Shown here in pieces: positions 15,012 to 28,536 of a stretch of 44,571 nucleotides of DNA. The translations under genes were made by a program, and so were the position numbers. This stretch comes from a virus. Positions within the stretch are counted from its first letter, which is position 1; the number at the start of each line of letters is the position of its first letter. The DNA lies in the IMG/VR virus record IMGVR_UViG_3300048592_001105, positions 1-44,571 of that record. The stretch is one strand, 5' to 3'. Under the pieces are notes generated by a model. It did no database searches. It was not told the DNA's origin and was given only the letters and a program-made list of their open reading frames with translations.

Positions 15012-15034
15012 AAATTTTGGAGATTATCAGGAGA

Positions 15035-15937
15035 ATGCTAGTTGGCTTTGATCTTTTTTCGGGCTATGGCGGCATCTCACTCGGACTCGCCGAGTGGGTC
15101 CGTCCCGCCCTTTACTGCGAAATCGAACGTTTCCCCCAGTCCATCCTGCTCTCGCGCATGGCCGATGGACAGCTGGCCCGGGCACCGATCTGGGACGACA
15201 TCCGAACACTCAGCGGCCGCGGATGGCGTGGAGCGATCGACATCGTCTACGGCGGCTTCCCTTGCCAGGACATCTCTCTTGCAGGAACTGGCCGCGGTCT
15301 GGACGGCAAGCGCTCGGGGCTTTTCTTTGAAGTCGTGCGGCTGGCCGAGGAAATCGAGCCCACATTCGTATTCCTCGAAAACGTGCCCGCGATCCGGACT
15401 CGCGGTCTGGACCGGGTTGTCGGGGAATTTTCCCGCCTCGGGTATGACTGTCGGTGGCGAACTCTTTCCGCTCATGCTGTCGGAGCCCCGCACGTCCGAA
15501 ACCGCTGGTTCCTGCTTGCTGCCCACCCCGACCGCATCAAACGCTGGAACCAACCGCTCGCCAGGCAGCAGCCGAGTTCGTCCATCATTGCATCACATGG
15601 CTCGGCACAACCTCTGGCCGACGCCGACCGTTCACGGGAATTATCAGAACAAAAAGCAGGGCGGATCGCAGCTGATCGGACTGGCGACCGCAGTCCGCCT
15701 CTGGCCGACGCCGCTCGCGCGGGATTGGAAGTACCCGGGCGGAAACCGAAAGACCGTTCCGCTCAGTGGGCTCACTGGTGGTCCGCTGAACCCGCTGTGG
15801 GTCGAATGGCTTATGGGTGTCCCAATCGGGTGGACCGAATCAAAGCCCTGGGCAATGGCGTTGTGCCAGCGCAAGTCCGCGAAGCGTTCCGCAGCCTGAT
15901 GGGTTTCGATGTCCCTTCTGATCAGAAGATGTCCTGA
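15035..15937 (+). CDS. Cytosine-C5 DNA methyltransferase
   Basis: A 300-residue m5C methyltransferase from ATG 15035 (GGAG upstream; a TTG at 15017 would add six residues). Motif I is FDLFSGYGGISLGL (5-18), binding S-adenosylmethionine. Motif IV is GGFPCQDIS with catalytic C77. Motif VI is LENV (E115). Motif VIII is VRNRW (155-157). A short variable region follows, with LADADRSREL, a second LADAARAG and AEPAVGRMAYG, and motif X is ALGNGVVPAQV near the end. It probably protects phage DNA from host restriction; no partner endonuclease is visible. The 3' half also encodes recognisable motifs in the +1 frame (separate entry). Confidence 0.92.
   Translation: MLVGFDLFSGYGGISLGLAEWVRPALYCEIERFPQSILLSRMADGQLARAPIWDDIRTLSGRGWRGAIDIVYGGFPCQDISLAGTGRGLDGKRSGLFFEVVRLAEEIEPTFVFLENVPAIRTRGLDRVVGEFSRLGYDCRWRTLSAHAVGAPHVRNRWFLLAAHPDRIKRWNQPLARQQPSSSIIASHGSAQPLADADRSRELSEQKAGRIAADRTGDRSPPLADAARAGLEVPGRKPKDRSAQWAHWWSAEPAVGRMAYGCPNRVDRIKALGNGVVPAQVREAFRSLMGFDVPSDQKMS
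15429..15899 (+). other. Second, overlapping coding frame with conserved protein motifs
   Basis: The +1 frame relative to the methyltransferase is open through its whole length (15042-15899). From about 15429 it shows motifs I recognise from a phage protein family found next to m5C methyltransferases: FPASGMTVGGELF, LLPTPTASNA, LWPTPTVHGNY, LWPTPLARDWK, and LNPLWVEWLMGVPIGWTE. The same bases encode methyltransferase motif VIII, LADAD, LADAA and EPAVGRMAYGCPNRVDR in frame 0. No dedicated ribosome binding site is seen; an ATG at 15444 or a +1 shift at TTTTCCC (15428-15434) are possible entry routes. Whether it is translated is unknown. Confidence 0.5.
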
Positions 15938-15996: not shown

Positions 15997-16206
15997 ATGA
16001 ATCATGAAGAAAAAGTGCTCGCGTTGCTTGAATCCATGGAATTGGCGGCGACCTGCCCGGACTGTGGCAGGCTCTCCATGGAGGTCTGGATGGCAAAGGG
16101 CAGCTGCCCTTATTGTCACAACAGGCCTATGGAAAAAGAGGAAAGCATACCGAACATTTTTGTCAGCGCAAGTCAGCGATATGTTCCGCAGCCTGAAGGG
16201 GACTGA
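15997..16206 (+). CDS. Small zinc-ribbon protein
   Basis: A 69-residue protein from ATG 15997, 7 nt after AGGAG. Two C-x2-C knuckles (ATCPDCGRL and GSCPYCHNR) about 17 residues apart form a zinc ribbon. The helical N-terminus (EEKVLALLESMEL) precedes it. It is the last plus-strand gene of the early module. A DNA-binding or late-transcription role is plausible by analogy, not proven. Confidence 0.65.
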   Translation: MNHEEKVLALLESMELAATCPDCGRLSMEVWMAKGSCPYCHNRPMEKEESIPNIFVSASQRYVPQPEGD

Positions 16207-16220
16207 TATCTAAAGTTGGG

Positions 16221-16709
16221 TCAAGGGTTGCTGATGCTATATGTCAGCGAACCCTCTCCAAACATTTGGGGCTCGAACTTCACTTTGCAAGTTTGACCTT
16301 CTTTAATGTCAAAAGTTATGGTGTGGGTATTGCCAAGATCAGTTCGGACGTATTGGTTCTTCTTATCCTCGAAGCATTTGTCGTCACGGCCTGGAAAAAC
16401 TCTGCAGTTGATGGGCTGGACCCATTCCAGCTTGAGCACTTTTTTGCCCTCGCTGCTTTTCCAGGTGAGAGTTCCCGCGTTTGCCAGCGTGCCAACTATC
16501 GCATCGTTCTCCGTTACGATATAAACGGCCTTCATGCCGTTGAACTTGTCAGGTCTTGAAACCTCGATACTTGCTGTACTATTCTCCTGTTTGAATCCAG
16601 GGTCCAAGGACGTATCGATGTCTTTTGGATTCACAATCACGCAAGCATTTGTCAGAGCGAAGAGAGCGAGTGGCAGAAGGTAAAGGGCTTTCACTGCAGA
16701 TTTCTCCAT
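16221..16709 (-). CDS. Secreted lipoprotein of unknown function
   Basis: From ATG 16709 the product is 162 aa with a clear signal: basic start, hydrophobic core (ALYLLPLALFALTNAC) and a cysteine as likely lipidation site. The mature part is beta-rich (TASIEVSRPDKFNGMKAVYI, then GTLTWKSSEGKKVLKLEW) and ends with HTITFDIKEGQTCKVKFEP. An upstream in-frame extension would hide the signal and is unlikely. It starts 10 nt after the neighbouring lipoprotein gene's stop, so they form an operon. I do not recognise the fold. Confidence 0.65.
   Translation of the reverse strand: MEKSAVKALYLLPLALFALTNACVIVNPKDIDTSLDPGFKQENSTASIEVSRPDKFNGMKAVYIVTENDAIVGTLANAGTLTWKSSEGKKVLKLEWVQPINCRVFPGRDDKCFEDKKNQYVRTDLGNTHTITFDIKEGQTCKVKFEPQMFGEGSLTYSISNP
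16224..16255. terminator. Stem-loop between convergent genes
   Basis: AGGGTTGCTGA (16224-16234) pairs with TCAGCGAACCCT (16244-16255) with one bulged base. It covers the last codons of the minus-strand lipoprotein and lies 17 nt past the zinc-ribbon stop, so it may terminate both transcripts. No strong T-run on either side, so confidence is limited. Confidence 0.45.
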
Positions 16710-16719
16710 GGTTTTCTGC

Positions 16720-17196
16720 TTAGTTTTTGCTGTCCAGCTTCCCGCATGGAAGACTGCGTACTCGATCGCGCTTTTCAACAGCAACGAGATTTGCGGCCAG
16801 GCTTTTGTCCTCGCTGCCGCGAATTCTCACGGTGCTGCCTGCCTGGTCCATCCAAAGCCATGATCCCATTTTGCTGGTTTCGCATTCGGACCTATCCGAA
16901 TAGAGAATCATTTTCCCTGGCAGTCTATGCTCGATTCTGCCGAAATCAGCACCGAGTGCCGTCTCGGTTCCATCAAGCTGAGTCCAGTAGTATCCATCCG
17001 CATCGATGCTGAGATATATGGAACCCTTCGAGAGGTTCAGGAGCCAGTCGCCTGCGAAGCTTTCAAGGTTCACCCGACGAACTTCGGCTGCTGTATCCGG
17101 ATCGAGTTCATCTGCACGCATGCCTCCTTTGCCGCCACCGCAGGCGGTGATGAATGTAAGGGCTATAATGGAGAGAAGGAGAGTGGTCAAGCGCAT
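16720..17196 (-). CDS. Secreted lipoprotein of unknown function
   Basis: From ATG 17196, preceded by AAGGA, the product is 158 aa. It begins MRLTTLLLSIIALTFITACG, a good signal peptide with an I-T-A-C lipobox, followed by GGGKGG. The mature region is a small beta-rich domain (FAGDWLLNLSKGSIYLSID, GYYWTQLDG, RLPGKMILYSD) with two further cysteines, similar in layout to lipocalin-like or META-type sensors, without a firm match. It is first of a two-gene operon. Confidence 0.65.
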   Translation of the reverse strand: MRLTTLLLSIIALTFITACGGGKGGMRADELDPDTAAEVRRVNLESFAGDWLLNLSKGSIYLSIDADGYYWTQLDGTETALGADFGRIEHRLPGKMILYSDRSECETSKMGSWLWMDQAGSTVRIRGSEDKSLAANLVAVEKRDRVRSLPCGKLDSKN

Positions 17197-17302
17197 GGCG
17201 CATTCCTTTACCGTGAAGGTGTTCGGCATCCGGGGCGTCCGCAAGCTATCAGAATCAGCCACCAGTGGCTTGCTCAAAATTTCTGGAACCAAGGCAAAAT
17301 AA

Positions 17303-21767: not shown

Positions 21768-22961
21768 ATGAAGACGAAGTTTTTGCTTTTGTTACTGAGC
21801 GCACTCGCCTTCGGCTGCCCAGTGGCAAGCTTTGCCCAAAGCAATCCAATGGAAGGATTTAAGACCAACGAGAACACGCAGTTCCTTGATTCAGTTACCT
21901 CTCTGAAGAAAAATTTCTTCTATGTGAAGAATGATCTGTTCGCTAGCAGGAATGGCCTCAAGGATCGTTACGACGACATAAATCAGCGTTTGAAGGACTG
22001 GACTGTGAAATGGAGTGCTATCCAAATCTACGTTCAAAACAACAGGAAACTTCCCATTCGGGATATCCAACGTGAAGTGTCGCTGAAGTTCTTCGATCAA
22101 GTGGAAGCCTTCCACAAGATACGCCTTGATGGGTCAGAACTCAGCCAGGATCTCATCAATGCAGCTGACCTTCTGCGCGGTTCTGTGCGTTCCAGGCATA
22201 TTCCAATCGTTCCCGGCGATGATTTCACGCAGAACTATCAAGCTTTGGGCGGCGCAGTTGATACGTTTGGGAATTTGCTCGTTACGATGGATGCAACCCT
22301 CTATGACAACCTGCAGTCCATCACTAGCACTTTTCAGGATCTGGAAGTGGCTTTTACACAGTTTGTAAGCGGAATTTATCTCAACGACGGCATCGAAAAG
22401 ATCCAGGAAGCGCGCCGAATGGTCCTGAACCTCTTTTTTGCCGAAAAATGGTATCGTCCCTACGGATCCAAACTTCAGAAACTGATGATCGCCATGGGTT
22501 CACATCTAACTTACAAGAATATTCTGGAAGTCACGCGCCTCCGCGCGGAAGTTGATACTGCCTGCAAAGCGACGCGTTTAGCCTTGCTGGCCAGCAAAGA
22601 CCTCGATCCATACTTTCGGGACAGCCTTGTGGCAGATACCGAAGCCACATGCACAGATTTCTTCACTCGCGTTGACGATCGCTTGATGCGTTGGAACTCA
22701 ACAAACCAAGCTTCGGATAGCGTGAATTACAAAAAGGACCTAGCCGGGAAAAAATGCAAACCTGGAATGGTCAACACATCGAATAAGGTGAACTGTCGCG
22801 CCTATGCTTGGGCCACAAAGATCAGCGAATCTCAGATCAACGCGATGGATGATAGGCAAAAAGCCAATCTGGAAAAACTATGGTGGGCCATTCTCAAAGG
22901 TCAAGTCATGGACGCCAATGCTCTTGGCCTTCAGGGTGCGCCATTTCAAGGGGCTCTATGA
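21768..22961 (+). CDS. Exported helical protein of unknown function
   Basis: A 397-aa protein with a signal peptide (MKTKFLLLLLSALAFGCPV, then ASFAQS). The mature part is almost wholly helical, with long amphipathic stretches (FFYVKNDLFASRNGLKDRYD, IEKIQEARRMVLNLFF) and scattered cysteines near the end (GKKCKPGMV, KVNCRAYAW). It follows the paralogue pair by 9 nt and overlaps the next gene by ATGA. A structural or export partner role is possible, without evidence of activity. Confidence 0.6.
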   Translation: MKTKFLLLLLSALAFGCPVASFAQSNPMEGFKTNENTQFLDSVTSLKKNFFYVKNDLFASRNGLKDRYDDINQRLKDWTVKWSAIQIYVQNNRKLPIRDIQREVSLKFFDQVEAFHKIRLDGSELSQDLINAADLLRGSVRSRHIPIVPGDDFTQNYQALGGAVDTFGNLLVTMDATLYDNLQSITSTFQDLEVAFTQFVSGIYLNDGIEKIQEARRMVLNLFFAEKWYRPYGSKLQKLMIAMGSHLTYKNILEVTRLRAEVDTACKATRLALLASKDLDPYFRDSLVADTEATCTDFFTRVDDRLMRWNSTNQASDSVNYKKDLAGKKCKPGMVNTSNKVNCRAYAWATKISESQINAMDDRQKANLEKLWWAILKGQVMDANALGLQGAPFQGAL

Positions 22962-24685
22962 AAACCAACAAATGCACTATGTTTTTAGCAGTAGGCTTCC
23001 TGGTCAATGCCCTGAGTGTTAAAGCTCAAGCAGTCGACGAAATCGGGCCAGACGATAACGTCCACCCATCCAAGACGCCGATTGAATTTAAACCTTTTCC
23101 TTTTAGACATCCCGAATCTGGCGCTCCGATTGTGCCACAAACCATTATCCGTTTACCCAACGGCAAAGCTCAGACAGCGCAGCAGTATTTCTCTGAATTG
23201 AATAGAATAGAACAGGAACTCAATAGACTAGGTTATACTCTTCGCAGCGGCGATCCTGTCCAGATTATTGCAGCACTGACAGACAATCCGGAACTGGCAG
23301 CTGCGGTGAAAAAGTACGACGTTCTCATCAGGCAGTTCGACAGCACCTACATGAAATATATCCGCGACCCTGAACTCATCCGTAAGGAAATCGAACAGGA
23401 ATTACGAGATCAGGCTCAGCGAGCGGTAGACGAACTCTATGAGAAAGCCAAGAAAAACCTACTTCCTAGCGAGATTGTCATCGAGCCTATTGAAGGCTAC
23501 ATGGTCAACCGCGTAAATAACAACCTCTATGTACCGTGGACGCGTGATTGGAGTTTCAAAGCAGGAAACACAAATATCGGCGCAGAAGCCAACATCTCCG
23601 CGCGTCTGGGCGTCGATAGCAACGCTTATCAGGTAATCGGTGAAGCAATCGTTAAGGGCAATTTACTCGGCCAAGGGTATGATCTCGCTAGCCTGGGCGC
23701 CAACCTCGAAGGCTATGAAGTCCCGAAGGATACCAAGTCCAGACCACCCGGAAACTACCTGGAGTTCCAACTCCAAGTCGTCGGCTTGAAACGATGGGTC
23801 AAAGTCTACGACCTTTCCAAAGAAACTTTCAATTTCAAGGATTTGGTGGATAAAGCGAAAGCGGAAGTGGGGCTGGGTGATTTGCTTCCCAAGCGCCCTA
23901 CACCCAGTACAGGAAAACCGCTTAGTCACTTTCTAGCAGGTGATGAGCACAAATTTCGTTTCGCTATTGGACCAATTCCCTGTTCGGCAACGATCGGCTA
24001 TGCGGGGAGTGTCGGCTTTGATACCAAAATTGCCAGCAAGTTTTCAGGAACTAAGCTGGATAAAGGCGCGAGTGGGACCGTGCAGATCCCTCCAGCTGTG
24101 ACTTTTTCGGGATCTTTAAACGCAGGGCCGGCGGTCTATGCTGAAGTCTATGGCAGCGGGGCTGCGGATATTGAAGTAGCTCGCGCTGGCTTTGAAGCTT
24201 CTGTGGTCGTAATCGATACTGGCATCGATGTAGACGTTGGAGCTAACCTGAGTCTCGACACAAAGACTTTTGAACCAGCTGTGGATCTAACTATGGTTTC
24301 AAACTATCACTTGATGGCTCTTAATGGGCGAGCAGCGGGTTTCGCTGAAGCTTATGTTCCCGCTGCCAAGCTTCCTCCGTGGGAACTGAAACGCTGGGAA
24401 CACACCATCATTGACTGGCAAGGCTACAGTCGTCGAGGTACGATCTTCAATGTGACTCGCCGCATCACCCCTCATGGTGAGACTATCTCAGGAGCACCGA
24501 CGAACGATGATGTGAAGAATATCGATTTAATGGAAGGCATAAAATCGAATTTCAGGGAAGCAGTGAATGATATTAGCACTAATACGCAGGACAAGGTCAC
24601 GGCTGGCAACCAGATGATTGACACGAATAACGTTGCGACAGCTGCTTACTTCGATTGGGTTGCTTCGTTCGGTAAAAATCCTTAA
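22958..24685 (+). CDS. Large exported beta-rich protein
   Basis: The start ATG 22958 overlaps the preceding stop (ATGA), giving 575 aa with a signal peptide (TMFLAVGFLVNALSVKAQA). Residues about 60-170 are helical (SELNRIEQELNRLGYTL). From about 190 to 520 the protein is dominated by alternating strands rich in Gly/Ala/Val/Asp (SATIGYAGSVGFDTK, AGPAVYAEVYGSGAADIE, VDVGANLSLDTK), compatible with a large beta-sandwich or lipid-binding sheet. A helical tail ends it. Only a longer out-of-frame-like extension exists upstream, which I reject. No family recognised. Confidence 0.6.
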   Translation: MKTNKCTMFLAVGFLVNALSVKAQAVDEIGPDDNVHPSKTPIEFKPFPFRHPESGAPIVPQTIIRLPNGKAQTAQQYFSELNRIEQELNRLGYTLRSGDPVQIIAALTDNPELAAAVKKYDVLIRQFDSTYMKYIRDPELIRKEIEQELRDQAQRAVDELYEKAKKNLLPSEIVIEPIEGYMVNRVNNNLYVPWTRDWSFKAGNTNIGAEANISARLGVDSNAYQVIGEAIVKGNLLGQGYDLASLGANLEGYEVPKDTKSRPPGNYLEFQLQVVGLKRWVKVYDLSKETFNFKDLVDKAKAEVGLGDLLPKRPTPSTGKPLSHFLAGDEHKFRFAIGPIPCSATIGYAGSVGFDTKIASKFSGTKLDKGASGTVQIPPAVTFSGSLNAGPAVYAEVYGSGAADIEVARAGFEASVVVIDTGIDVDVGANLSLDTKTFEPAVDLTMVSNYHLMALNGRAAGFAEAYVPAAKLPPWELKRWEHTIIDWQGYSRRGTIFNVTRRITPHGETISGAPTNDDVKNIDLMEGIKSNFREAVNDISTNTQDKVTAGNQMIDTNNVATAAYFDWVASFGKNP

Positions 24686-24706
24686 GAATGAACTGGAGGA
24701 TAGCCA

Positions 24707-26551
24707 ATGAAGAAGCAAATTTTGATTTTAGCTGCTCTTTTTGTTCTGGCTCTGCTGGCTTTGATCCCTCGGAAATATCATGGACATACAAGTGATGGAA
24801 AACTAATACGATTGGGCAAACCCAAGGTTGGCCAAGCCTATCGCTGGAATTTTTCCTTCACGACGGATGGCGACAACAGCTTTGACGCTATCTTCGCTGT
24901 ACCTGCATCCTCATCCTCCAGCAGACAGGTCTACAATACCGAGTTGCAGGGTCTACTTGTGCAAAGCATTTTGGATCAAAACCAGGATGGTGTGAAAGTT
25001 TTGTACGAATTTGAAAATCTGACTGCAAAAGTACAAGTGAACGGAGTAGATAACGAGATTCTCTGTCAGCGCATTGCCAAGGCAGGTAAGTCCCCTTTCA
25101 TTGTAAGTTTTGATGCAAACGGTCGCCTTATAAGCTTACAAACCGATTCGGGCAAGGATGCCGACTCGCAGGCATTAGCCACCATACTCTATCGGTTGCA
25201 GCAGCCATATGTTTTCGACTCCAAGACTTTCACCGTCACGGAAAATGATGAAAATGGAACTTATCAGGTTAAGCTTGTCTATGAAGCAGCTAATTCGGTC
25301 CTGAAGAAGACAAACCAAAGCTATGAGAGCAAGGACAACTCGCCGTTTATGCTGGAATCAACATATGAAGTAGACCTAGCTTTGGATGATGATGGCGCGA
25401 AGAAAATTGATGGCAATCAGATTCTGACTTTCAAGGCACAAAATCAGACGTTCTCGAAGGCGCATAGCAATTGGTCTTTGGAGCGCACAGGCACGATGAA
25501 GTTGACGGCTGATCAACTCGCAGTTCTGGATGCCAAAGCAAGGTCTGACGCACTTAAGCAGTTGATCGGCGGAGCCGAGGATGATCAGGAAAAGCTTGAA
25601 CGCCTAGTCGAGGAAAGTCGATTGGTCGACCTTCTGGCGAAGGTGCAGGAAGAGAACTTTGGCAGTTCGGAAAACAGAGTCGGAAAGATTCTATCCCAGC
25701 TGGTTGCCCACATTCGGCTGCATCCAAAGGTTATCCCCGAGGTTCTAAATATCGTGGAGACAGCAGATTTCAACAGTCCAGGTTTCGTTTATAGCCTGGG
25801 AGCCCTGGTGCGAGCAGGCACTCCGGAGGTACAAGACGCGTTCACCGAGTTACTGCGGAATGGATTCAATGACGATCCTAAACGTCTCTTCCGTCTTATC
25901 AGCTATATACATGATTTGAAGGAGCCTACACATGAGTTGGTGCAGGAAATTCTGGCTATCGCCAACAAAAACGATGGTTTTGTTTCGGAAGGAGCTTTGC
26001 TCGCAGCAGGATCTCTGTCGGGGCAACTAGATAAGCAGCACGATGATTTCGGCGTCACAATAATGCGCGACCTGCTGCAACGATGGTCGGCGGCGGCGGA
26101 CGTCGATGACAAGGTACGACTTCTCAATGCCATCGGAAATTCTGGTTCAAAAGCAGCTTTTCCGGTCATTCGTCAGGGTCTTAATAAGAGCGAGAGCTAT
26201 CTGACACGCAAGGCCGCAGCGGAAGCTCTTCGGAAAACTCAGTATCCTTTAGCCCAAGCCCTGCTGATAGATACTTATATCAATGATCCCCATGATGAGG
26301 TCAAGCTCGCTGCATTAGCAAGCATGCAATCACAGACGCTGGAGCCATCAATTGTTCTATCACTGGTGCAAGACTTACTCCGCTCGAAATCAAATGATTC
26401 GCTTCAGATCCGTTTAATGCGCACTCTCTGGGTTTATCGTGCACAGGAGCCTTTGATCACTCAAGTGGTCACGCAAATCTCAACTCGTGGCGGTGACTCG
26501 GGACGCGAAGCGATCACTTTGCTAGATACTGCCCCTAAGATCCAAAAATAG
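24707..26551 (+). CDS. Membrane-anchored HEAT-repeat protein, vitellogenin-N-like layout
   Basis: A 614-aa protein with a perfect GGAGG site and an N-terminal anchor or signal (MKKQILILAALFVLALLAL). Residues about 35-250 are beta-rich (GQAYRWNFSFTTDG, VKVLYEFENLTAKVQVNG, FIVSFDANGRLISL). Residues about 280-610 are helical repeats of HEAT type (ALLAAGSLSGQL, RLLNAIGNSGSKAAFPVIRQ, TRKAAAEALRKTQYPLAQAL). A beta-barrel followed by a helical arch, with GTPEVQDAF near the junction, resembles the lipid-transfer architecture of vitellogenin/MTP N-domains. That similarity is inferred from layout only. Confidence 0.55.
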   Translation: MKKQILILAALFVLALLALIPRKYHGHTSDGKLIRLGKPKVGQAYRWNFSFTTDGDNSFDAIFAVPASSSSSRQVYNTELQGLLVQSILDQNQDGVKVLYEFENLTAKVQVNGVDNEILCQRIAKAGKSPFIVSFDANGRLISLQTDSGKDADSQALATILYRLQQPYVFDSKTFTVTENDENGTYQVKLVYEAANSVLKKTNQSYESKDNSPFMLESTYEVDLALDDDGAKKIDGNQILTFKAQNQTFSKAHSNWSLERTGTMKLTADQLAVLDAKARSDALKQLIGGAEDDQEKLERLVEESRLVDLLAKVQEENFGSSENRVGKILSQLVAHIRLHPKVIPEVLNIVETADFNSPGFVYSLGALVRAGTPEVQDAFTELLRNGFNDDPKRLFRLISYIHDLKEPTHELVQEILAIANKNDGFVSEGALLAAGSLSGQLDKQHDDFGVTIMRDLLQRWSAAADVDDKVRLLNAIGNSGSKAAFPVIRQGLNKSESYLTRKAAAEALRKTQYPLAQALLIDTYINDPHDEVKLAALASMQSQTLEPSIVLSLVQDLLRSKSNDSLQIRLMRTLWVYRAQEPLITQVVTQISTRGGDSGREAITLLDTAPKIQK

Positions 26552-26568
26552 TGTGAAAGGATAAACGC

Positions 26569-28536
26569 GTGTTTAAGCTTAAGAACATAGGCAGTGTGAT
26601 TTTGCTCTTCGGTTTAGCTGCCTGTGGTGGTTTGACCCAGAAATCGAAGGTCAAGAACATCTATGGGACCAGCCCCTCGCAGATGAATACGACTCTCTGC
26701 AATGATTCGATGGAAACTATCTACATTGCTGGTGCGGATGATCTAAACCAACAGACTATGATCACCCGTGGTTGGGAAGATGTCGCTCCTGGCACTTGCA
26801 AGAATCTCAGCACCTTTCTCTATAAGGACGCCAATTCCGTTGAGCAAATCGGTTACTTTGCTGACTTCGCTATTCGCTTCAAGAATAAGCCATTTGAAGG
26901 CGTAGCAGGGCTAAGCAAAATTGGTAAATATCTGTGCATCCCCAAGAACAAGACAGTAGATGCTAAAGATTGGTCGTATCAGTGGGATTACGCAAGCCTT
27001 GCCATGGGCGGCGACTACAGCGGTCGATGCCCTGAAGACGGAGAGCGTGTAGCCGCCTATAAGTTCGCCTGGACGGAGACCTCGGAAACGGTGTTTTCAG
27101 TTCGAGTTCAAGGTCGCGTCGGGAGTTCAGATCCCAGTACGCAGCTGAACGAATATGGATTCCCTGTTAACAGCTTGATAGATGCTGACTTGCAAAGGCT
27201 CTTAAGTGAAGATGCTTATCAGTTCTTTAAAGATCGTGGCATAGCCGACAAAGACAACCCAGTCTTTCTTGCTCGCAAGGAACTTGCAAAACTGCCAACG
27301 ACTTCATTGAACCAGAATCAGCAACAGTTGATGGTCGCATTGCGTGCATGGTGCTGGACTATCATTGAATTCTGGAAAGCTGCAGCACTTTTAGCGGAAG
27401 AGCAGAAGAAAAAGGAGTTGGAAGGTCTTGATCGAATTAGCAACGGGATGCCCGGCTTGATTCGTGGAATTGTAGGTTCGGCAGGTTGCACAGGTTTGTC
27501 CATTGCTGCAGGGGATGCTTCGGATTTTTACGAAGTGGTGGTCGGTTACGACCTCTGCGGTGAAAAATTGGATTGGAGCGATCGTACTCTGAGCGGACTG
27601 GGCCTAGTCGTCGGGAGCGGTGTTATGTGGCGGGGCATGTCAAAGGCCGCCGATGCTGGGAGTGATATCAAAGAGATCGCTGACGGCATGACCCGAGTTA
27701 GTCGGCAAGCCGAACGCCTGGGAGTGACCGATCCAAAGAATGCAAAGCGCGTGCTTGAGGCCCTTGGCGAGTGTGCTTTGAAAACAGCTGCTGTACAGCC
27801 ATCCATGCTAGATCGCATCAATCGCATTGTTAATCCTTTCTATATTCCTGAAGCTTATGCCGGCACCTGTAATGTGGAGCAGGCTCTACGGAATGCGGTA
27901 GAAAGAATTGGCGAATTAGGTTTTAAGAATGCCGATGAAATGATGGAATTCGTGGAGCAGCTGCGCAGAATCCCGAATTTCAAATTGAAGCACTTGACCT
28001 ATTTTATCGAACTTGCAAGGAAAGACGGTTTTGGTAAAAAGTCCCTGGCGGAAGTGGCCGGCTTTATTAAAGCAGCCCACACTAATATCCTTCCAGATGT
28101 GAGGAAGGTCGGTAATATCGTAGTCGAAGAAGACAAATTTTTGCTCCGCGCTCTGGCCCTATCGGATGACGTTAATGCATCGGGCTATCTTCGACTGCAA
28201 GAAGGCATGGCCGCAGCCCGTTATGAAGCTGTCAGTGGGAAAAGCCTGTTAAACAGCTCCGCTAAGAATTGGGACTTTGAAATTGAAGGAACATTGGAAA
28301 AAGTGAGCCTCAAGGGGCCTCTTTTGTCCAACATTGGGCTTGTTCCCGACATGAAACCTTTCGCTCGGAAGAACGCTGTCGCTGGTATCGGCAATCGTGC
28401 TAGAGATGATCTTGAGTCAGGACTGGCGGACTTGGTGCTGGTTGACCTCTATGGCCTGAACGACTCTGAAAAGGGCATCATTAGAGATCTGCTTAAAGAT
28501 TTCGTAACAAATAAAAAACTCAAAATCTTGGAATGA
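26569..28536 (+). CDS. Lipoprotein polymorphic toxin with pretoxin domain
   Basis: A 655-aa protein starting at GTG 26569 (AAAGGA upstream). Lipobox L-A-A-C at C19. Residues about 30-200 are a beta-rich extracellular module. Residues about 296-362 (AAGDASDFYEVVVGYDLCGE, then KLDWSDRTLSGLGLVVGSG) match the pretoxin pattern D-x-x-x-x-x-x-G-x-D-x-x-G-x-K-L. The last 110 residues carry NWDFEIEGTLEKVSLKGPL, with D569, E571 and K582 spaced like a PD-(D/E)XK nuclease, then ADLVLVDLYGLNDSEKG. Such C-termini are variable toxin tips. The next gene overlaps by ATGA, the usual immunity position. Target unproven. Confidence 0.55.
   Translation: MFKLKNIGSVILLFGLAACGGLTQKSKVKNIYGTSPSQMNTTLCNDSMETIYIAGADDLNQQTMITRGWEDVAPGTCKNLSTFLYKDANSVEQIGYFADFAIRFKNKPFEGVAGLSKIGKYLCIPKNKTVDAKDWSYQWDYASLAMGGDYSGRCPEDGERVAAYKFAWTETSETVFSVRVQGRVGSSDPSTQLNEYGFPVNSLIDADLQRLLSEDAYQFFKDRGIADKDNPVFLARKELAKLPTTSLNQNQQQLMVALRAWCWTIIEFWKAAALLAEEQKKKELEGLDRISNGMPGLIRGIVGSAGCTGLSIAAGDASDFYEVVVGYDLCGEKLDWSDRTLSGLGLVVGSGVMWRGMSKAADAGSDIKEIADGMTRVSRQAERLGVTDPKNAKRVLEALGECALKTAAVQPSMLDRINRIVNPFYIPEAYAGTCNVEQALRNAVERIGELGFKNADEMMEFVEQLRRIPNFKLKHLTYFIELARKDGFGKKSLAEVAGFIKAAHTNILPDVRKVGNIVVEEDKFLLRALALSDDVNASGYLRLQEGMAAARYEAVSGKSLLNSSAKNWDFEIEGTLEKVSLKGPLLSNIGLVPDMKPFARKNAVAGIGNRARDDLESGLADLVLVDLYGLNDSEKGIIRDLLKDFVTNKKLKILE

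Follow-up and report, generated by a model that had tools for sequence, protein, structure and literature searches.

Overlapping reading frames of a phage cytosine methyltransferase gene are both under selection and very probably encode two parts of one enzyme

In the window, a 44,571-base IMG/VR virus record, a single m5C DNA methyltransferase gene can be read in two overlapping frames. Comparison of the gene with its relatives shows two open frames, each under purifying selection, and the selected frame switches by region. The two frames very probably encode two proteins that join to form a single m5C DNA methyltransferase. In the simplest model, separately initiated polypeptides would assemble into one enzyme: frame 0 would provide the large catalytic domain (motifs I-VIII, a probably unstructured linker and motif X), and the +1 frame, translated from its own start codon and without frameshifting, would provide the small DNA-recognition domain with LPTP-type target-recognition blocks and motif IX. 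What we say about the translation, complex formation, enzymatic activity and target sequence of the two-protein enzyme is what we infer from comparing sequences.

In m5C enzymes resembling M.HhaI, the large domain is built from motifs I-VIII together with motif X, and the small domain consists of the recognition region and motif IX. The frame-0 ORF of the window (15035..15937, plus strand, as are all features of the gene given below; 300 aa from the ATG at 15035) encodes the m5C DNA methyltransferase large domain, with the motifs expected of the PF00145 family, I, IV (PCQ), VI (ENV), VIII and X, all on one chain. Motif IV (GGFPCQD, 15251..15271) is invariant in 148 relatives; motif VIII is VGAPHVRNRWFLLA (15479..15520) and motif X is IKALGNGVVPAQ (15839..15874), where stops become frequent in the +1 frame. 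The frame-0 protein matched PHROG 363 (3.7e-63) and PF00145 (2e-34), the Pfam match being limited to residues 11-180 and ending past motif VIII; in a PDB sequence search, M.HaeIII and M.HhaI matched over motifs I-VIII. Motif IX (LTPxExxRLxGFP), which lies between the recognition domain and motif X, was not found on the frame-0 chain, and a IX-like segment is present in the +1 frame. Because the Pfam match ends after motif VIII and motif IX is in the +1 frame, we class the frame-0 chain with split enzymes, as their catalytic half, and not with complete single-chain members. Judged by conservation and substitution pattern among the relatives, no recognition region is conserved in frame 0 itself.

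The +1 ORF (15042..15899) comprises 285 codons plus a stop, with a TTG start right behind an in-frame TAG (15039-15041). An earlier note on this DNA had described a long open +1 frame and motif sets in two frames within 15429-15899; every motif string named there is present at the stated position, and the ORF itself extends well upstream of 15429. Along the +1 frame lie the segment FPASGMTVGGELFPL (xPxSGMTxxGxLYxL, 15429..15473), which AlphaFold predicts to be a beta hairpin, three recognition blocks (LLPTPTASN, 15516..15542; LWPTPTVHG, 15612..15638; LWPTPLARD, 15699..15725) and the motif IX-like LNPLWVEWLMGVPIGWT (15786..15836; compare LTPxECARLMGFP of ordinary enzymes). The second and third blocks overlie LADAD (15614-15628) and LADAA (15701-15715) of frame 0, and the twofold LADA/WPTP correspondence claimed earlier is exact, with CTGGCCGACGCC present precisely twice, at 15614 and 15701. 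The +1 product would most likely be a small-domain/recognition polypeptide.

As a protein, the +1 product matched PHROG 1008 (1.7e-23). No Pfam or NCBIfam match was obtained, nor any PDB match by fold or by sequence, including PDB sequence searches with +1 profiles, and an AlphaFold model of the +1 protein alone was of low confidence (pLDDT 64). Its N-terminus, which runs over motifs I-IV, is for much of the stretch under little amino-acid constraint, so the model has to tolerate a long, poorly conserved extension, which counts against it. At motif IV itself the third bases of frame 0 are free, and the +1 frame is therefore unconstrained there.

A +1 frame may be open merely through the composition and codon bias of frame 0, and the window taken by itself leaves room for such a shadow ORF. 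The open +1 frame of 285 codons is only mildly unusual here: when frame 0 was shuffled synonymously, +1 stayed open in 611 of 20,000 trials (3%), a probability of 0.03 given frame 0. Since the window alone is weak on this point, the case rests on relatives. We used 148 nonredundant, divergent relatives, with synonymous shuffling as the null and with the frame-0 protein and codon usage held fixed. The +1 frame was open in 134 of the 148, against 6.1 expected, and contained 30 stops against 634 expected. Stops were avoided over motifs IV-VIII (21 versus 404 expected), and past motif IX the deficit was absent (180 versus 159). Low-GC relatives were open as well (29 of 35 with GC<0.5, 0.12 expected), and among relatives picked by frame 0 only, all 30 were open (0.84 expected) with 0 stops versus 129.

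The control frame +2 matched the null, with 1616 stops observed and 1648 expected, and 13 canonical m5C enzymes taken from some of the same genomes gave no open +1 frame (114 stops versus 131.5 expected). BLOSUM shuffle z-scores, which ignore shared ancestry and are hence inflated, served only for the comparison of +1 with +2. The openness, the substitution pattern described below and the base choice in relatives cannot derive from frame 0, and the shadow ORF, to which we give a next to negligible probability, was rejected on the synonymous shuffle, the +2 control, the canonical methyltransferases and the substitution pattern. The suggestion of the earlier note that a second protein is encoded in the methyltransferase gene is thus supported by the openness (134 of 148) and by the substitutions. 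Neutral evolution of the +1 frame in relatives, which had been named as a ground for dropping that idea, was looked for, and the stop counts and the canonical enzymes show that the frame does not evolve neutrally.

Substitutions between close pairs locate the switch of the selected frame. Counted at frame-0 codon positions 1, 2 and 3, the window and relative L089 differ by (4,1,11) over motifs I-VIII and by (25,7,5) over the recognition region plus motif IX; the corresponding counts are (28,21,69) and (38,8,4) for the window and L009, and (16,6,37) and (33,9,6) for L091 and L099. The fastest-changing codon position thus moves by one base at the boundary between motif VIII and the recognition region. 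Within the recognition blocks the variation falls mainly on frame-0 position 1, which is position 3 of the +1 frame, and the LADA strings of frame 0 are therefore mostly shadows of the +1 WPTP strings. Pairs from E. coli and Salmonella were less informative: the recognition zones of L250 and L251 are near-identical, and that of L252 is strongly diverged. The earlier note took both motif sets for real family motifs; they are not equivalent along the whole gene. The +1 set stands, with its PHROG 1008 match, and both frames are selected around motif IX; in the recognition blocks the +1 frame is the selected one, leaving LADA as a by-product.

Around motif IX, the frame-0 stretch WWSAEPAVGRMAYGCPNRVDR (15776..15838) is constrained jointly with the +1 motif. 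In 111 sequences with less than 80% nucleotide identity, three frame-0 Arg were kept in 108/109, 106/106 and 111/111 cases (background 0.45, 0.57 and 0.40), though the bases concerned are free in the +1 frame. A frame-0 Trp base was kept in 82/83 (background 0.20) where the +1 frame would tolerate others, and a frame-0 Glu base in 71/75 (background 0.56). The frame-0 Gly of this block is GGG in 111/111 sequences, and the third base of an Ala/Val codon is fixed to T. The binomial p-values for the block overstate significance because the sequences are related; the base choices are inexplicable by one frame alone, and both frames are constrained. Further upstream, over FPASGMTVGGELFPL, a frame-0 Gly is nearly always GGG, which lets the +1 frame read Gly (G in 74/77 of the clade).

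We also considered programmed frameshifting, by which one chain would be read in frame 0 to motif VIII, in +1 for the recognition region and motif IX, and again in frame 0 for motif X. The order of selected frames along the gene (frame 0, +1, frame 0) is the one that a twice-shifted chain needs. A shift, however, needs the +1 frame to be open downstream only, and the stop avoidance over motifs IV-VIII lies well upstream of any shift point, including the +1 ribosomal shift at 15428-15434 that had been proposed for the window. Moreover, the bases of the IX block are constrained in both frames, and a single ribosome pass cannot use them twice; the distance of about 14 nt between GW and the LGN of motif X is also less than the IX-X link of M.HhaI. 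Because the +1 frame is open upstream and both frames are used at motif IX, frameshifting is disfavoured, and we rate it as highly improbable.

Start codons and Shine-Dalgarno-like sites suit independent initiation of the +1 protein better than a shift. In the window, an AGGAG site (15029..15033) precedes the frame-0 ATG (15035) by 1 nt and the TTG at 15042 by 8 nt. Of the two, this TTG has the better spacing from the AGGAG that they share; it lies 7 nt past the frame-0 ATG and is the most likely candidate start of the +1 product. In 118 loci, the early class, +1 is open from the start of the gene onwards; 103 of them have a start codon 11 nt ahead of motif I (ATG in 92, GTG in 7, TTG in 4), and the +1 starts of this class mostly lie 4 or 7 nt past a frame-0 start. 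In a late class of about 60 loci the +1 frame becomes open only within the gene, and the first +1 starts there have an anti-Shine-Dalgarno energy of -8.3, compared with -6.1 for shuffled sequences and -3.8 for the remaining start codons in +1 (Wilcoxon p=5e-8).

Outside overlapping genes, the +1 protein has homologues both as separate genes and as in-frame fusions to motif X, which answers the concern that none might exist beyond methyltransferase shadow ORFs. In hhalign (99.65%, E 5e-25), a +1 profile aligned to the recognition-IX-X segment that methyltransferases of actinophages carry. Among 61 classifiable actinophage loci, this segment is in frame with motifs I-VIII in 11, forms a second, non-overlapping gene in 7 (as also in RedFox 42/43), and in 43 is carried by a gene that shares roughly 170-305 nt with the first, in +1 (as also in Stasia, Zaka and Vagabond); a +2 overlap was not seen. 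The AlphaFold model of a single-chain relative is M.HhaI-like (Foldseek E 8e-17), with I-VIII and IX-X confident and the LPTP stretch left without a resolved structure. In the A4 mycobacteriophage Kampy, RNA-seq showed that both methylase genes are transcribed early (PMC4626039).

Some actinophage single-chain genes (L298, L253, L262, L264, L299 and L006) still have their first LPTP blocks in the +1 frame. The return to frame 0 varies among them, lying within the recognition array or, in L298, just before motif IX, and it often coincides with a TAG that immediately precedes an LLPTP in frame. The +1 openness of these genes was left out of the analysis, being counted to the first stop and hence circular.

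The same homology bears on the possibility that the +1 protein is real and has another role (anti-restriction, regulatory or inhibitory), with frame 0 being a complete methyltransferase. An E...R...G.P segment before motif X in frame 0 is conserved in its own right, as this reading would have it. Against it, the +1 segment is homologous to methyltransferase segments that carry recognition region, IX and X in one frame, and frame 0 is without a conserved recognition region. In addition, a precedent exists in M.EcoHK31I, whose motif IX is placed on a second polypeptide in the account given by PMC3404938, and the title of the original M.EcoHK31I paper says that two proteins are required. We therefore consider another role unlikely, and keep to two proteins forming one enzyme.

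To collect relatives we scanned IMG/VR, GTDB genomes and annotated phages; the locus counts are lower bounds and not estimates of prevalence. Across these sources at least 169 loci carry the motif-IX-like string; in at least 157 of them it is read in +1 of a PCQ methyltransferase gene whose frame 0 is itself open throughout, and in at least 145 loci motif IX is followed, exactly 62 nt past its start, by the LGN of motif X in frame 0. The scans gave more than 500 confirmed stretches from IMG/VR and at least 392 from GTDB. Among the relatives are phages of Acinetobacter, Synechococcus, Lacticaseibacillus, Salmonella and Paenibacillus, and those found by frame-0 patterns alone also carry LPTP blocks in +1. 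A wider reading, to which we give roughly even chances, is that of a very widespread overprinted phage/prophage family in which the +1 protein would be an exchangeable specificity subunit, with evolutionary transitions among forms that are single-chain, split, partly overlapping or overprinted throughout.

Annotation of the examined records mostly gives frame 0 alone (e.g. E. coli PT62, with the prophage gene LZ175_RS06105, and Salmonella phage S9-5), and the recognition part is therefore absent from predicted proteomes. Paenibacillus phage Diva (L004) is annotated with a +1 gene, g50 (1676-2380), within the cytosine methyltransferase gene g49 (1492-2544), merely as an internal gene; its motif X lies farther past motif IX than in the 145 loci above (149 nt versus 62 nt). 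PHROG 1008 and PHROG 363 are separate families with the common label 'DNA methyltransferase', which is silent on two frames of one gene. A search of E. coli genomes for EcoHK31I-like genes returned four prophage genes only. The annotation of E. coli PCP07014 (L252) calls its prophage copy, which has an internal stop, a pseudogene; stops lie close together in both frames, and both products would therefore be truncated.

The coding region for the small polypeptide of M.EcoHK31I lies within that for the large one, in a different frame. As in the window, the large polypeptide of this enzyme (YGGCCR, Lee et al. 1995) carries motifs I-VIII and X without IX, and IX comes from a second ORF, according to PMC3404938. 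A published prediction places its recognition domain on the large polypeptide, whereas selection places the recognition region of the window gene in the +1 frame. M.EcoHK31I is also part of a restriction-modification system, whereas over the examined part of the window we recognised no partner endonuclease. By its architecture, the window gene would be filed with the M.EcoHK31I kind. M.AquI (CYCGRG) is likewise made of two polypeptides, alpha and beta, with I-VIII on one and IX on the other, the split lying between VIII and IX (PMC3404938); its small subunit, however, carries both IX and X, as in the split actinophage genes Stasia 76/75, Zaka 91/90 and RedFox 42/43, whereas motif X of the window gene is in frame 0. 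Fragments of M.SssI, M.HhaI and other enzymes are able to complement one another (PMC3404938, PMC3439449).

In the open literature searched, with most subscription journals outside its scope, we found no description of a widespread overprinted phage family. The M.EcoHK31I kind is known; the breadth, the dual-selection evidence and the placing of the recognition region in the +1 protein are new. To our knowledge, there are few documented cases from bacteria and DNA phages of long overprinting on one strand in which both frames are clearly selected. The present case is linked to a known enzyme fold and to an activity that can be tested, and its recurrence in at least 157 examined phage/prophage loci gives a natural series in which to follow the making of two genes out of one. 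Methylation specificity predicted or cloned from the frame-0 protein alone should fail.

Several other features of the window were observed. Three ORFs of about 600-655 aa follow one another at 22880-28533 without a PHROG match. A 43-nt direct repeat, 84% identical (15861-15903 and 16158-16200), copies the 3' end of the methyltransferase gene; the downstream copy lies past a small zinc-ribbon-like ORF (about 15997-16206) and looks like a cassette insertion at the methyltransferase tail. The adjoining minus-strand ORFs (16221-16784 and 16720-17292) have lipoprotein-like N-termini (LTNAC and ITAC) and are possible lysogenic-conversion genes.
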